Source: Ignavibacteriales bacterium (GTDB lineage Bacteria > Bacteroidota > Ignavibacteria > T3Sed10-11). From it: a stretch of DNA of 43,243 bases. This document shows, in pieces, positions 10,328 to 38,415 of the stretch; within the stretch, counting starts at the first letter, position 1; the number at the start of each line of letters is the position of its first letter. Made by a program: the position numbers and the translations under genes. The DNA is taken from NCBI GenBank assembly GCA_003562775.1, contig PWTU01000267.1:1-43243 (forward strand), given 5' to 3'. The notes beneath the pieces were generated by a model, which was not told the DNA's origin, did no database searches, and worked only from the letters and a program-made list of their open reading frames with translations.

Positions 10328-11959
10328 ATGTCGAATGCATATTTTAAAGTGCCCGAAACAAAGAATGAAGCACCATTGATGTATGCACCGGGTACCCCCG
10401 AACGTGAAGATTTAAAAAAGACATTAAAGGAACTACAATCAAAAGAAATTGAAGTTCCGCTGATTATTGGCGGCGAGGAAGTGAAATCAGGCAATACCGC
10501 AGATATCCGACCGCCGCATAATCACGGCAAAAAACTCGGTATATATCATAAGGCAGGCGAGAAGGAAGTAAACATGGCCATCGAGGCGGCGCTTGAAGCC
10601 CGAAAAACCTGGGCAGAATTGCCGTGGGAACAAAGAGCTTCGGTTTTCCGCAAGGCAGCCGAATTGCTAACCGGTCCGTGGCGCTATATTATTAACGGCG
10701 CAACTATGCTCGGTCAGTCGAAGACGTCGCATCAGGCGGAAATAGAAGCAGTTGCCGAGCTTGCAGACTTTTTAAGATTCAACACACTCTACATGACAAG
10801 AATTTTTGACGACCAACCGTACTCACCAACGGAGATGTGGAACCGGGTAGAATACCGTCCTCTGGAAGGATACATCTTTGCGGTGACGCCGTTTAACTTT
10901 ACTGCAATTGCAGGTAACTTACCGACATCCCCCGCAATGGTGGGCAACGTATCGTTATGGAAACCGGCATCAAGCGCTGTTTACTCGGCATATCACTTTA
11001 TGAAGCTGTTGATTGAGGCGGGTCTGCCGCCGGGCGTCGTCAACTTCATCCCGGGATCGGGTTCGCAGGTTGGCGTTCCTGCACTTTCAAATGAAAATCT
11101 CGCAGGTATTCAATTTACCGGATCGACAGCGGTATTTCAGCAGATGTGGAAACAAATTGGCGACAATCTTCATAAAATGAAATATTATCCGAGAATCGTA
11201 GGCGAAACCGGCGGTAAGGATTTTATTTTCGCACATAAAGATGCCGATGTAGATGCAATGGTGGTTGCAACGATTCGGGGTGCTTTTGAATATCAGGGCC
11301 AGAAGTGTTCGGCCGCATCGCGGATGTATATTCCGAAATCGATCTGGCCGGAGTTCAAGGATAAATATGTCGCCCAAGTGAAAAATATTAAAGTGGGTGA
11401 CGTGGAGGACTTCACAAACTTTATGGGTGCCGTTATAGACAAAGCGGCGTTTAAGAGCATAACCGAATACATCGATTATGCCAAGAAATCCGATGAAGCG
11501 GAAATTATAACCGGCGGCGAGTATGATGATTCAAAGGGATATTTTATCCAGCCGACGACCATTCTTACGACAAATCCGAAATTCAAAACAATGGAAGAAG
11601 AGATATTCGGTCCGGTTCTGACGATCAACGTCTACGATGACGATAAGTTCGATGAGGCACTCACCCTGTGCGACGAAACCTCACCTTATGGTTTAACCGG
11701 CGCGATATTCTCACAAGACAGATATGCACTGGATTATATGACCAAACGGCTCCGGAACGCAGCGGGGAACTTCTATATTAACGATAAACCCACAGCGGCA
11801 GTTGTGCATCAACAACCATTCGGCGGAAGCCGCGCTTCCGGTACGAACGATAAAGCCGGTAGCGTGATGAATATGCTGCGCTGGATGACAGCCCGGGCGA
11901 TTAAAGAGACCTTCGTACCGCCAAAGGACTGGACGTACCCGTATATGGGTGAAAAATAG
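10328..11959 (+). CDS. pruA: L-glutamate gamma-semialdehyde (P5C) dehydrogenase
   Basis: The 543-residue aldehyde dehydrogenase oxidises glutamate-5-semialdehyde to glutamate with NAD+, the second step of proline catabolism. Catalytic Cys327 lies in GQKCSAASR and the general base Glu293 in GETGGKD; VTPFNFTAIAGNL (186-198) is the Asn motif. The sequence resembles the ALDH4A1 type found in animals and many FCB bacteria: a stand-alone enzyme with a long N-terminal extension, not the fused PutA. GGAGG precedes the ATG. No proline dehydrogenase gene is in the window, so the first step must be encoded elsewhere. A strong terminator follows. Confidence 0.94.
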   Translation: MSNAYFKVPETKNEAPLMYAPGTPEREDLKKTLKELQSKEIEVPLIIGGEEVKSGNTADIRPPHNHGKKLGIYHKAGEKEVNMAIEAALEARKTWAELPWEQRASVFRKAAELLTGPWRYIINGATMLGQSKTSHQAEIEAVAELADFLRFNTLYMTRIFDDQPYSPTEMWNRVEYRPLEGYIFAVTPFNFTAIAGNLPTSPAMVGNVSLWKPASSAVYSAYHFMKLLIEAGLPPGVVNFIPGSGSQVGVPALSNENLAGIQFTGSTAVFQQMWKQIGDNLHKMKYYPRIVGETGGKDFIFAHKDADVDAMVVATIRGAFEYQGQKCSAASRMYIPKSIWPEFKDKYVAQVKNIKVGDVEDFTNFMGAVIDKAAFKSITEYIDYAKKSDEAEIITGGEYDDSKGYFIQPTTILTTNPKFKTMEEEIFGPVLTINVYDDDKFDEALTLCDETSPYGLTGAIFSQDRYALDYMTKRLRNAAGNFYINDKPTAAVVHQQPFGGSRASGTNDKAGSVMNMLRWMTARAIKETFVPPKDWTYPYMGEK

Positions 11960-11984
11960 GACTGTTATACCCTCCATTTAATAT

Positions 11985-12033
11985 AAACCTGCGGTATGTC
12001 CCTGACCGGCATGCCGCAGGTTTGTTTTTTTTT
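11985..12033 (+). terminator. intrinsic terminator after pruA
   Basis: AAACCTGCGGTATG (11985-11998) pairs with CATGCCGCAGGTTT (12010-12023) over 14 positions with one G-U pair, followed by a T run from 12025 to 12033. It lies 26 bases after the pruA stop. Confidence 0.93.
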
Positions 12034-12092
12034 ATAATTACTTGTATAATTATTCTTTAGGTAACTGAAAATTGTTTTAATCGACCGGTACT

Positions 12093-16577: not shown

Positions 16578-18638
16578 TCACCTAAAAATCCTCGAAATAA
16601 ACGATCTCACCGCGCGAATGACCGACCGGTGTTGATCGCATAGCCCCGGCAAGGAGTCGGTGAGCATAACCTCAGTTATTCGGTCGGGACAGCGATTTCG
16701 TGCGAGTTTGTTGGATTCAGGGCAAATGTCGGCATGTCTGATACCCGGAGGAATTTCGAATTCTCCCGGTTCAAGATCAAGTCCCTCGTCGGTGTAAATA
16801 TGTTGCATAAATGCGGCCCAGATCGGTAGTGCACTCCGGGCGCCCTGTCCGTTGATCCTGCTCATCGTGATGCGTCTGTCGTCGAAACCGACCCATACAC
16901 CGGCTGTAATATCGGGAGTATAACCGATAAACCAGCCGTCTGCATATCCTTGAGTGGTGCCGGTCTTACCCGCCGCGGGAAAGTCGATGTATACTAATGC
17001 GGGGTGACCGGTACCGTACTCGATTACATCGCGAAGCATATCGGTCATAATATATGCGGTTTCCGGTTTGAGCACCCGTCTGGTTTCGGGTTCAAAGGAA
17101 ACAATAATATTACCGTCATTATCTTCGATGCGTTCAATTGCAAATGGTTTTGAGTAGATTCCGCCGGCCGCGTAAACACCGTAGGCAGAGGTCAACTCGA
17201 GAGGCGATACTTCCGCTGTACCGAGCGACAACGATTCATAGGAATGGAGGGGAGATGAAATACCTAAAAGCCGTGCATATTGTACTATTTGTTCGATCGG
17301 TGCAAGTTCCATCATCGTGCGCACCGCAATAAGGTTAATGGACATTGCAAGCCCTTCTCTCAATGATGCATCTCCGCCGGTTGCTCTATCCACATTTACC
17401 GGTTGCCAGAGTGTTCCGTCATCGGTCGTGATCGTTACGGGTTCATTCGAAAGCCGGTGCCATGGCGGAATACCGTTGTCGATTGCCGCTGTATAAACAA
17501 ACGGTTTAAATGCAGAGCCGGGTTGCCGCCGGATTTGGGTGGCCCGGTTAAGTCCATGTCTGTGTTGAAGAGCATCGGTTCCGCCCACCATTGCTTTGAT
17601 CGTTCCGGTAAACGGGTCGAGTGCGACAAAACCGGTTTGTATACGGTGAGTGTCATCATCATACATTTCCTGATATGACGCGAGATGTTTTTCGATTGCA
17701 TGATTTGCATGTTGCTGCATCCGGCTGTCAAGCGTCGTATGAATGGTCAACCCGTCACGGTAAATATCAAATCCGTATGCAACGGCAAAATCCGATAATT
17801 GCCGTCGAACATACTCTACAAAATGAGGTGCAATATTCGAGTCTGCCGGGGAGATATTATCGGTTACTTCCATCGGATACGACGATGCAAGCCGTGCAAT
17901 ACCGGGGGATATAAATTCCATAACCGACATCGAATGCAATACATAGTTCCTTCGTGTTAGCGCCCGATCTGGATTGCTATACGGATTGTATAGCGAAGGA
18001 TTCGGCAGCACACCGACCAACAGCGCCGATTCGATGAGCGTTAATTCGGGAACGGATTTATCGAAGAATTGTTTTGAAGCCGTAGCGATTCCGTAGGAAC
18101 TGTTTCCGAAATAGGCAAGATTAAAATACATCTCAAGAATCTCGTTTTTTGAATACCGGCGTTCTATCTGAATGGCGGTGATTACTTCACGGATCTTTCT
18201 TGTAAGCGATCGGGATTGATCGAGGTAAAGATTACGTGCGACTTGTTGTGTAATCGTACTTGCTCCTTCGCGAATCCGGAAGCGTAATATGTTTTTAATA
18301 GTTGCTTTTAATATACGATCCGGGTCGATTCCGCGATGACGGTAGAATTTTCTGTCCTCTGATGCAATGAGTGCATTTATTAAATGTGAGGGGAGTTCAT
18401 CGAACGTTGAGCGTTCCCGGTTAACCACCGAATAGCGGCCGAGTAAAACGCCGTCGGCAGAGTATATTTCTGAAGAAAATTCGGTTTTTGGATTTTCGAG
18501 CTGCTTTATCGATGGTAATCCCGATATGACATAAATTCCATACGATATAAAGAAAAGGATTAAAAGAGCAGTGATCAGCAGCGGTAATTTCTTTAAATAG
18601 TCCGGATTTTCACGCTTTTTCTTTCTTTTGATTGTCAT
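16578..18638 (-). CDS. penicillin-binding protein 1A (transglycosylase/transpeptidase)
   Basis: The 686-residue class A PBP has a short basic cytoplasmic end, one membrane helix (about residues 19-38), a GT51 transglycosylase domain with Glu94 in ASEDRKFYRHRG and GASTITQQ at 125-132, and a transpeptidase domain with Ser375-x-x-Lys378 (GSAFKPF), Ser433-Ile-Asn435 and KTGT at 558-561. It polymerises and cross-links peptidoglycan in the periplasm. The C-terminal region holds three Cys (CPESNKLARNRCPDR, GLCDQH), a tail often seen in FCB-type PBP1A proteins. It stands alone, with a long spacer on each side. Symbols used for the family are mrcA or ponA. Confidence 0.94.
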   Translation of the reverse strand: MTIKRKKKRENPDYLKKLPLLITALLILFFISYGIYVISGLPSIKQLENPKTEFSSEIYSADGVLLGRYSVVNRERSTFDELPSHLINALIASEDRKFYRHRGIDPDRILKATIKNILRFRIREGASTITQQVARNLYLDQSRSLTRKIREVITAIQIERRYSKNEILEMYFNLAYFGNSSYGIATASKQFFDKSVPELTLIESALLVGVLPNPSLYNPYSNPDRALTRRNYVLHSMSVMEFISPGIARLASSYPMEVTDNISPADSNIAPHFVEYVRRQLSDFAVAYGFDIYRDGLTIHTTLDSRMQQHANHAIEKHLASYQEMYDDDTHRIQTGFVALDPFTGTIKAMVGGTDALQHRHGLNRATQIRRQPGSAFKPFVYTAAIDNGIPPWHRLSNEPVTITTDDGTLWQPVNVDRATGGDASLREGLAMSINLIAVRTMMELAPIEQIVQYARLLGISSPLHSYESLSLGTAEVSPLELTSAYGVYAAGGIYSKPFAIERIEDNDGNIIVSFEPETRRVLKPETAYIMTDMLRDVIEYGTGHPALVYIDFPAAGKTGTTQGYADGWFIGYTPDITAGVWVGFDDRRITMSRINGQGARSALPIWAAFMQHIYTDEGLDLEPGEFEIPPGIRHADICPESNKLARNRCPDRITEVMLTDSLPGLCDQHRSVIRAVRSFISRIFR

Positions 18639-19085
18639 TTTCCCTCGCCTCGATAATAATCTTTCCTTTTTGATTCGCTTCTATATAATATCCGGATTAT
18701 ATCACTAAGACAACATATTTACACCGGCAGGTGTTCCGATGAATATAATTTACAATTTACGTATTTATTAAAAAGGGTGCAATTTGATATTAAATTTTCA
18801 TACATATAGTTCGTTTATTATAATATTTCGGACAAAAAAGGATTTGCAAGTCCGATATAGCGGGAACTCTTATTACCCTTTTCTGTTGCAATATATACAA
18901 CCCGTCGATTCGTTGGCGGTTGTAACAATAAAATAAACAGAACCCGGTCTGTTGGTTATGCACCGATATATCTTTCATAAACATCTTCATCAAAAAATAA
19001 CCGGGAGACCGGGTCAATTGCAATAACAATCCTATTTACTGACACACTAAACCACCGGGGGAAACTGATAAGGAGGGAAGGGTGT
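18639..19085. other. 447-base gene-free interval upstream of the DksA-like gene
   Basis: An open frame at 18790-19029 on the minus strand has no ribosome site and crosses the structured part, so it is not counted as a gene. The interval divides PBP1A from the DksA-like gene (divergent), so it must hold both promoters. Its 3' half, 18886-19023, contains several complementary segments described separately as a possible structured RNA. Just before the downstream gene is AAGGAGGGAAGGGTGT. Confidence 0.5.
18886..19023 (+). ncRNA. candidate structured leader RNA with alternative stems
   Basis: Four complementary pairs are visible. An outer 7-base pair joins TTGCAAT (18886-18892) with ATTGCAA (19017-19023). 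Inside it, TACAACC (18896-18902) pairs with GGTTGTA (18918-18924). A long helix joins 18942-18959 (ACCCGGTCTGTTGGTTAT) with 18997-19014 (ATAACCGGGAGACCGGGT), 15 of 18 positions paired. A competing hairpin, AACAGA (18936-18941) with TCTGTT (18948-18953), uses the same bases as the long helix. The strand is assumed from the downstream gene at 19086; the pairing works on both strands. It matches no RNA family I know. Confidence 0.3.
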
Positions 19086-19487
19086 ATGCAGAAAAAAATA
19101 CGGAATATGCTCGGGGAAAAACTGCTTCAGGAAGCCGGTCACGTTCTTGAGGAATATTTTCACCAACCTTTAGAAGAAGCAATTACCGATTTACGAATTC
19201 GGTACCTTATCGACAAAGATGCCCGCGAGCCGGTTGACATTCTCCACGGTCTACATTTCAGCGGATTATTTTATCAAATACATAATGATGCAGCAGAGCA
19301 ATTACGGCGTGCCCTTGCGCGGTTTGTAGACGGCGGTTATGGTTTATGTTTACATTGCGGAGATACTATACCGGAAGAATGGCTTTTGAGAAGTCCTTTG
19401 CTTTCCTACTGCTCACGGTGTATGGTGAATATGCGGCCTTTGCACAAGGAAGAGAAAGAGCGAGAAATGACGACGGATTATGTTTAA
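19086..19487 (+). CDS. DksA/TraR-like C4 zinc-finger protein
   Basis: The 133-residue protein ends in a DksA/TraR zinc finger: GGYGLCLHCGDTIPEEWL (Cys88, Cys91) and YCSRC (Cys109, Cys112), preceded by a helical N-terminus (residues 1-80). DksA-like proteins enter the secondary channel of RNA polymerase and modulate initiation, often with ppGpp. I do not see the standard DxxDxA tip motif in the helical part, so the mode of action may differ from true DksA. An AAGGAGG site precedes the ATG by about ten bases. The long upstream region has candidate RNA structure, which might regulate it. Confidence 0.75.
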   Translation: MQKKIRNMLGEKLLQEAGHVLEEYFHQPLEEAITDLRIRYLIDKDAREPVDILHGLHFSGLFYQIHNDAAEQLRRALARFVDGGYGLCLHCGDTIPEEWLLRSPLLSYCSRCMVNMRPLHKEEKEREMTTDYV

Positions 19488-19499
19488 TATTGATCGGTG

Positions 19500-20324
19500 T
19501 TATGAATTTATAAGAAAGGTACGTCCGCTCTTTTTAATCAACCCGTCCTTCTGAAGCTGCTTGAGAATCTTCTCGAGATCGTGATTTTGTATATCGATCG
19601 CCTGTTCAATTTTCCGCTTGGTTACCGCTCCGTTTTTGGATAATAGTCGGATTATACTGCCGCGTACCTGTCGTGACGATCCATCAAAGCGGGATTGCGC
19701 TTTATAATGGGCGCTGCGTTTGTTGGGATTATAATGTTGTTTTTTCAGGTATACACCGTAGTCCATCAGTGCATAATACCATTCGCGTATGTTCCGGTAA
19801 TCATTGGTTTGTGCTACCAACGAAGCAATTTCATTATCGTGGACTTTTTTCTTATGAGATAGGAAACAGTGCAGGAATACGGTTCGTATATTGGTTTCGA
19901 TAAAAACGGTCGGTATATCGAATGCAAACGCTCCGATAGCAGATGCAGTTGCTTTGCCGATCCCCGGCAATGTTTGCAGAATTTCCGGTGATCGGGGAAT
20001 ACGGCCATTATAACGTCCGGAAATGATAATTGCCGTGTTTTTTAAATATACCGCACGCCGGTTGTAACCCAGGCCCTGCCAAACCGCAACAATATCGGAT
20101 AACGGTGCACGCGCCAGTGAAATTAACGAGGGAAATTTACGTATGAACAATTTATATTTCGGAATAACCCGCTCGACCTGTGTTTGCTGCAGCATCATTT
20201 CGGAGACGAGAATCCGGTAAGGAATTCGTGTTTTTCTCCACGGCAAATCATGCCGGCCGTAACGATGAAAATAATGCCGTATCGTATTTTGAAAATTCCG
20301 GATTTGAGATTTTGTTAGTTTCAT
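19500..20324 (-). CDS. MutY-like HhH-GPD DNA glycosylase without 4Fe-4S cluster
   Basis: The 274-residue protein follows MutY through the glycosylase core: LPWR at 27-30, SEMMLQQTQV with the catalytic-type Glu42, GLGYNRRA, and the helix-hairpin-helix LPGIGKATASAIGAFAF (119-135). Two features differ. The MutY catalytic Asp position reads FIETNIRTVF, giving Glu143. The four-Cys cluster motif is absent; instead comes WYYALMDYGVYLKK and NPNKRSAHY. The C-terminus is a short winged-helix-like domain (about residues 210-274), not the MutT-like 8-oxoG recognition domain. It is thus a divergent glycosylase whose substrate is uncertain. ATG at 20324 is preferred because the upstream extension to 20399 looks noncoding. 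Confidence 0.85.
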   Translation of the reverse strand: MKLTKSQIRNFQNTIRHYFHRYGRHDLPWRKTRIPYRILVSEMMLQQTQVERVIPKYKLFIRKFPSLISLARAPLSDIVAVWQGLGYNRRAVYLKNTAIIISGRYNGRIPRSPEILQTLPGIGKATASAIGAFAFDIPTVFIETNIRTVFLHCFLSHKKKVHDNEIASLVAQTNDYRNIREWYYALMDYGVYLKKQHYNPNKRSAHYKAQSRFDGSSRQVRGSIIRLLSKNGAVTKRKIEQAIDIQNHDLEKILKQLQKDGLIKKSGRTFLINS

Positions 20325-37163: not shown

Positions 37164-38291
37164 ATGAAAATTCTCGTTTTCAACTGGCAGGATATTAAAA
37201 ACCCGTTTGCGGGCGGGGCGGAGGGGCATCTGCACGAGACATTCAGGAGAATTGTAAAGAAAGGACATCCGGTCACGCTTGTATGTTCCAACTTCAGAGG
37301 AGGAGCCCCGCGCGATATCATTGACGGTATTCGAGTGATACGCATCGGTACACGAAATTTATTCAACTTCGCCGTTCCTCTGTGGTACTTATTTTTCGGG
37401 TTCAGGTACGATGTAGTAGTAGATGACGTAAATAAAATACCGTTTTATACACCGATCTATGTACGTAAACCGATCGTTGCATTATTCCATCACTTGTTCG
37501 GAAAAAGTATATATCTTGAAACAAATCCCGTCGCAGCGAGCTATGTTTATGCATCGGAGTGGTTGATACCGAAAGTGTACAGAAAGACCCCCTCCGTCGC
37601 CGTTTCTGAAAGTACAAAAAAAGAACTGATCGAGATGGGTTTAACGGAAGATAATATTACCGTGATACATAATTCCGTCGATCACTCCCTTTATCGACCG
37701 GAGGATAGGGAAAACGGCAAACCCTTTACAATCGGTTTTTTAGGCCGTATTAAAAAATATAAAAGCATCGACCACGTACTGCAAGCATTTGATATGATAA
37801 AGACACGAATTCCGGATGCGCAGTTGCTGGTAGTCGGTGACGGAGACTATCTGCCCGCACTTAAAAAAACGGCGTCGAAGATGAATTGTCGTAATGATAT
37901 TACCTTCACCGGATATGTTTCGGGTGAAGAAAAGGTAAAACATATTAATAAGATGGATGTGGTGGTTAATCCTTCACCAAAGGAAGGATGGGGTTTGACG
38001 GTCATCGAGGCAAATGCTTGTGGAAAGACAGTGGTCGGAGCGGACGTACCGGGATTGCGCGATTCAATCATACATAACCGGACCGGTTTGCTCTATGAGT
38101 ACGGCGACATCGAAGCGCTCATGATTCATCTGTTTAGATTATATTCCGATAAAGAGCTGCGGGAAAATCTGTCTCAGAACGCACTTGAGTGGGCTGCAAA
38201 ATTTAATTGGGACACTGCGGCGGAGGAATTTCTCAAGTTTATAAATGAAAGTGTGTATAACTGGAAATTCCGGAAAAAATCTTTTATCTGA
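37164..38291 (+). CDS. GT4-family glycosyltransferase
   Basis: The 375-residue protein is a GT-B fold enzyme of family 4. The N-terminal domain opens MKILVFNWQDIKNPFAGGAE, with the Gly-rich loop near residue 17. The C-terminal donor domain has IGFLGRIKKYKSIDHVLQAF and the E-x7-E motif region SPKEGWGLTVIEANACGK. Such enzymes transfer a sugar from a nucleotide donor, retaining configuration, in glycan or lipid-linked sugar assembly. The ATG at 37164 is chosen over a TTG at 37146; it starts four bases after the methyltransferase stop, so the three genes are an operon. The sugar and acceptor are unknown. Confidence 0.92.
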   Translation: MKILVFNWQDIKNPFAGGAEGHLHETFRRIVKKGHPVTLVCSNFRGGAPRDIIDGIRVIRIGTRNLFNFAVPLWYLFFGFRYDVVVDDVNKIPFYTPIYVRKPIVALFHHLFGKSIYLETNPVAASYVYASEWLIPKVYRKTPSVAVSESTKKELIEMGLTEDNITVIHNSVDHSLYRPEDRENGKPFTIGFLGRIKKYKSIDHVLQAFDMIKTRIPDAQLLVVGDGDYLPALKKTASKMNCRNDITFTGYVSGEEKVKHINKMDVVVNPSPKEGWGLTVIEANACGKTVVGADVPGLRDSIIHNRTGLLYEYGDIEALMIHLFRLYSDKELRENLSQNALEWAAKFNWDTAAEEFLKFINESVYNWKFRKKSFI

Positions 38292-38320: not shown

Positions 38321-38415
38321 TCTCCCACAGAATCTCGATAACCCCGATAGCCATCGGGGGAATCCCACGAGAATATTTTTTTTTAAAATCTGTGGGATTC
38401 CAATTCTGTGGGAGA
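38321..38415. repeat. nested palindromic element in a convergent gap
   Basis: Outer arms TCTCCCACAGAAT (38321-38333) and ATTCTGTGGGAGA (38403-38415) are perfect reverse complements over 13 bases. Inside are CCCCGAT/ATCGGGG (38342-38348, 38353-38359) and AATCCCAC (38361-38368) with GTGGGATT (38392-38399). A T run (38375-38383) lies between the last two arms. The gap is between the plus-strand GT4 gene and the minus-strand lipoprotein, ending six bases before the latter's stop. It may act as a terminator for both, or be a MITE-like element. Confidence 0.75.

Follow-up and report, generated by a model that had tools for sequence, protein, structure and literature searches.

The window analysed here, a stretch of 43,243 nt from a soda-lake bacterium, contains a structured element directly 5′ of a gene that encodes a DksA-like regulator. 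This gene (19086–19487, + strand) encodes a 133-aa DksA/TraR-like C4 zinc-finger protein and is preceded by a Shine-Dalgarno sequence, AAGGAGG, which was read from the sequence at 19070–19076 (+). On its 5′ side lies a divergent gene for a penicillin-binding protein (PBP; transglycosylase and transpeptidase) at 16578–18638 (−), and its 3′ neighbour is a convergent gene for an HhH-GPD DNA glycosylase. The intergenic region between the PBP gene and the DksA-like gene measures 447 nt in the window compared to 384 nt in the related genome G003. Elsewhere in the window, a TPP riboswitch at 2423–2534 (−; 70.7 bits) is the sole match to Rfam 15 at gathering scores.

The 133-aa product can fairly be described as DksA/TraR-like, based on sequence and fold matches that are weak but consistent. 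For example, the four cysteines of the C4 zinc finger (C88, C91, C109 and C112) are invariant in six sequences, and a profile of six relatives matches the DksA-type structures 2kq9 (6.5e-07) and 1tjl (0.0012) in the PDB. Similarly, the top eight matches in a fold search are all DksA-type, each of them weak (E 0.03 to 0.23), and the structure model of the protein has a mean pLDDT of 80.0. Pfam at 0.001 gave no family for the protein, and the curated DksA cut-offs were not reached (25.0 bits vs 105 for NCBIfam NF033459 and 17.7 vs 115.5 for TIGR02420). The initial annotation of this DNA, made from the sequence, had called the gene DksA-like and its product a likely RNA polymerase modulator; the first part agrees with these matches, and the second goes beyond them and is one that we infer.

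A long hairpin in a closed domain

A helix with 15 of 18 positions paired, lying within a larger closed structure, had been described at this locus, and both are present. The helix joins a 5′ arm at 18942–18959 (+) to a 3′ arm at 18997–19014 (+) through 15 Watson-Crick and two G-U pairs, with one mismatch, over 18 positions, and the distance between the arms is 37 nt. Its dG is about −27 kcal/mol, and it is beyond chance, as a helix with at least 17 of 18 positions paired was seen in none of 300 shuffles. The long hairpin alone has a z of −5.07, with none of 200 shuffles as stable, and its antisense has a z of −3.36. Furthermore, the 138-nt region as a whole folds at −43.2 kcal/mol (z −5.06, again with none of 200 shuffles as stable), compared to −38.5 kcal/mol (z −2.83) for its antisense. 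The larger structure is closed by the pairing of UGCAAU (18887–18892, +) with AUUGCA (19017–19022, +); closing stems with six or more pairs turn up in 56 of 1000 shuffles. Within this closed domain, a minor hairpin, ACAACC..GGUUGU (18896–18924, +; dG −12.1, z −2.06), forms on the side.

When 1440 segments of 138 nt from both strands were ranked by folding, the exact segment at 18886 came third, a rank that is favoured by its having been placed by hand on the element, and the best overlapping grid segment (18901, +) came only 21st. The gap to shuffles was at least 17 kcal/mol in three segments, namely the one at 38281 on both strands and the exact segment at 18886. No second copy of the element was found in its own genome, where the three other matches are 19–22 nt long (E 0.2–0.7), and an origin as a repeat or mobile element was rejected on the ground of this single copy.

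Two other structures of the window may be described alongside. At 38321–38415, between convergent genes, there is a very stable nested inverted repeat (z −5.69) composed of two facing copies of a ATTCTGTGGGA-type word, an inner CCCCGAT hairpin and a T run, which may be a repeat or a terminator working in both directions. At 11983–12034 (+), 3′ of a gene ending at 11959, an 18-bp stem (G-U pairs included) is followed by a T run and looks like an intrinsic terminator. At least one neighbour in the ranking, the segment at 11941 (+), is a long stem with a U-run behind it, resembling an intrinsic terminator, unlike the hairpin 5′ of the dksA-like gene, after which there is no U-run.

The short stem and the question of a switch

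Riboswitches and attenuators are located in leaders and contain two stems that are unable to coexist. The element is like them in its leader location and its non-coexisting stems, and the initial annotation had read it as having their architecture. The second stem is a 6-bp hairpin at 18936–18953 (+), AACAGA/UCUGUU, in which 18936–18941 pair with 18948–18953, so that it overlaps bases of the long helix. This hairpin is present as described, yet at a frequency expected by chance, with stems of its size appearing in 191 of 1000 shuffles. Its dG is −4.1 alone. When the short stem is forced, the region folds at −32.5 instead of −43.2 kcal/mol, a cost of 10.7 kcal/mol, and the pair probability of the stem in the ensemble is essentially zero. 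Moreover, in folds of a growing transcript that starts at 18831 and is extended in 10-nt steps, the short stem is absent from the best fold at every step from 18960 on, and no counterpart overlapping the helix was found in G003.

A scan of 18300–19700 found no intrinsic terminator. At gathering scores Rfam 15 has no family match at the element, and a permissive search of 18640–19130 gave three matches, all far below gathering scores, which agrees with the earlier statement that no known RNA family was recognised. No conserved leader peptide was seen when the short frames around the hairpin were compared by eye with those of G003. Sequestration of the Shine-Dalgarno sequence was considered as well, prompted by the fold of 18780–19085 and by a pairing that is possible in both species; in the window, a possible anti-Shine-Dalgarno strand, ACCCUUUUCU at 18875–18884 (+), pairs with 19074–19083. 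The probability of this pairing is 0.2 to 0.84 and varies with the pair and the assumed transcript ends, a run of 10 bp or longer arises in 290 of 2000 shuffles, and the best run in G003 is 8, which is typical of shuffles. The candidate was dropped because shuffles reach it easily.

As the short stem is out of reach and occurs at chance frequency, and there is neither a terminator nor significant sequestration, a switch is unsupported. The two exclusive stems are a matter of geometry here, and overlapping stems in one sequence are no evidence for a switch, given that the long stem is conserved and the competing stem is not. Apart from the bases that the stems share, nothing favours a riboswitch or attenuator; unlike known examples, the element is without a competitive alternative fold, a terminator, significant sequestration or a family match, and its loops differ between the two sequences compared. 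This reading is not supported, and we regard it as very improbable.

Comparison with relatives

The order to which the window belongs is represented by six genomes from a single genus. The DksA-like gene has clear orthologs in G003 (68% protein identity), G004 (58%) and G005 (54%), and none was found in G001 and G002, both of which are incomplete genomes. The contig of G004 begins 30 nt 5′ of the gene, and in G005 other genes are inserted 5′ of the ortholog and the leader is a different one. G003, where the gene is flanked by the divergent and convergent genes also found in the window, is the only relative able to test the element by synteny. The intergenic regions of the two align at 49–53% identity over aligned columns, which is near saturation.

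At the matching place in the intergenic region of G003, CCGGUUUCAU..AUGAGACCGG form a 10-bp stem. This hairpin has a z of −4.36 in the sense direction (none of 200 shuffles as stable) and of −1.35 in antisense. The core of the 5′ arm, CCGGTCT at 18944–18950, is near-identical in the two sequences, and GAGACCGG in the 3′ arm (19005–19012) is identical; the distance from the core 3′ arm to the ATG is 73 nt in the window and 56 nt in G003. With the arms counted by hand, all ten core positions are paired in G003. Six of these pairs are unchanged between the window and G003, two carry one-sided changes (C-G to U-G and U-G to U-A), one is changed on both sides (U-G to A-U), and a mismatch is replaced by C-G. 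The arms thus keep 15 of 20 letters with all ten positions paired. By a statistic that was designed after the match had been seen, shuffling the intergenic region of G003 yields a match of such quality in 3 of 20,000 cases, and none of 1488 real 384-nt chunks contains one. These chunks come from partly overlapping loci and exclude 11 loci with the two elements or neighbouring sequence.

Covariation in relatives had been proposed as a check, and its outcome is divided, as the long hairpin is kept and partly covarying in G003 and the short hairpin and the closing stem are not. TTGCAA is found in G003 on the 5′ side of the closing stem only, and the minor hairpin at 18896–18924 has no clear counterpart there. 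Likewise, the loops of the long hairpin differ between the window and G003, although two sequences are too few to define a ligand-binding core, and over its full 290 nt the leader of G003 shows no unusual stability (z +0.69). A DNA search gave no homologs, the matches with E ≤0.1 in 26 of 99 genomes being the window itself and short matches. A covariance model would have little power here, with two sequences and a 5′ arm misplaced by MAFFT.

Because only two loci bear on the element, inheritance of a chance or decaying inverted repeat by two species, without constraint, is a serious rival. A motif scan of the six genomes with a loose outer-stem pattern, in which palindromic matches are listed twice, returned 36 rows vs 0 for a reversed-pattern control, and such a number indicates that CCGG words are common in these genomes and that CCGG..CCGG combinations are frequent. 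The rows at a DksA-like gene are those of the window (two rows) and of G003:C324, and all 12 of the 36 rows that were checked elsewhere in the genus are inside open frames of at least 100 codons, stop to stop. The surroundings of the hairpin are not conserved, which would also be in keeping with chance, as would the ordinary stability of the G003 leader as a whole. On the other side are the stability of the hairpin itself (z about −5 in the window and −4.4 in G003), the rarity of the arm match among shuffles, and the retention of the arm letters amid the low identity of the intergenic regions, with the changed core positions all paired. We consider chance inheritance unlikely on this evidence, though it has to be taken seriously. 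The initial annotation had itself allowed for a chance or decayed repeat; this caution holds for the short hairpin, which is within chance, and to a lesser degree for the long one. Its observation of the sequence is confirmed, and its interpretation overall is partly supported.

The genus contains 14 DksA-like loci, of which the 12 with enough upstream sequence were scanned. In all three readable orthologs the strongest fold within 300 nt 5′ of the gene is a nearby hairpin (z −5.28, −4.17 and −4.89), and the upstream hairpins of the nine DksA-like paralogs (z −0.52 to −3.73) are weaker than those of the three orthologs. The hairpin of the ortholog G005:C183, CCTGCCGGCAA..TTGCCGGCAGG, has a different sequence and lies directly 5′ of the Shine-Dalgarno sequence, at most 60 nt from the ATG and without a U-run. 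It may end the preceding gene, which we take to be PfpI-like.

Strand, possible role and published parallels

A promoter-like sequence of the divergent PBP gene, TTGCAC-N17-TAAATT, lies at 18754–18782 (−). The pattern TTGCMC-N17-TANNTT is found 5′ of the PBP gene in four of the four genomes examined, 71–192 nt from the ATG, and its single match in the window (18782–18754, −) has the element on one side and the PBP gene on the other. Judged by its sequence, this site is likely to be a conserved PBP promoter, and if it is real the element is outside the PBP mRNA, because the promoter separates the two. A PBP leader on the minus strand was rejected in view of this conserved promoter. Promoter-like sites are also present for the + strand at 18795–18824, although they are weak evidence in such A+T-rich DNA. 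Folding favours the + strand in both the window and G003, and the G-U pairs in the stems of both species work solely in + strand RNA.

The position between divergent genes and the conserved CCGG in the arms could also suit an operator at the DNA level, in which the inverted repeats would be the binding site of a regulator that acts on the divergent promoters. However, arms 37 nt apart, G-U pairing that works in both species only as + strand RNA, and a two-sided change that preserves the RNA pair and not the DNA word all argue against it, and we see little chance of an operator here.

An independent small RNA between the two genes, outside the dksA-like mRNA, would account for an element that is intergenic, structured, strand-biased and present as a single copy in its own genome. 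Such an RNA is improbable, as the region 18300–19700 has no terminator-like site, whereas the hairpin at 11983–12034 (+) has a long U-run, and as the distance from arm to ATG is similar in the two species (73 and 56 nt).

Stable stem-loops in 5′ UTRs form a general class of elements that tune mRNA decay or translation. The element resembles this class in having one strong leader hairpin with the ribosome-binding site downstream, and differs from it in that its effect is a predicted one. Our best explanation, which we hold tentatively, is that the dksA-like mRNA carries in its 5′ leader a static single stem-loop that influences decay or ribosome loading. Transcription of the + strand would start from a putative promoter near 18784–18824, and the leader hairpin would fold once and stay folded, with its 3′ arm ending 55–75 nt 5′ of the start codon and the Shine-Dalgarno sequence open or loosely paired. 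The hairpin would then most likely set the level of the DksA-like protein via mRNA decay or ribosome loading, or would perhaps serve as a protein landing site. Provided that it is transcribed and has a function, the hairpin would give a regulator of the secondary-channel type a small leader element specific to its lineage, a little-studied one from soda lakes that is placed close to Ignavibacteriales.

The nearest published parallel found is GraL, which the accessible part of its report describes as a structured RNA of 37–59 nt in the E. coli greA leader that ends at an intrinsic terminator and acts in cis autoregulation (PMC6829880). The likeness is that of a structured leader RNA at a gene for an RNA polymerase secondary-channel factor; unlike GraL as described there, the leader here is without a terminator and its hairpin is larger, and autoregulation is a feature of GraL (PMC6829880). 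That the DksA/TraR-type regulator controls its own synthesis, with the protein or the polymerase under its influence acting at a terminator-free, lineage-specific hairpin, is a very improbable reading. In the accessible portions of the literature on dksA leaders and riboswitches, no dksA-leader RNA of such kind was found, and the same is true of the literature on Bacteroidetes/Chlorobi structured RNAs and on leader hairpins and mRNA stability, as far as its accessible portions go; dksA, TraR and Ignavibacter do not occur in the main text of PMC2864571.

Another DksA-like paralog, which is absent from the window, has leaders in G005 (C247:4115–4232, −) and G003 (C457:1321–1432, +) that are 74% identical. 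They are situated about 110–250 nt 5′ of the gene. Their features are a hairpin of the form TCATC..GATGA, another stem that covers a Shine-Dalgarno sequence, and a short open frame whose translation includes YPLKFLI. This paralog leader has no Rfam match in G005 or G003 and was found in two of 61 genomes; it is better conserved, and possibly encodes a leader peptide.
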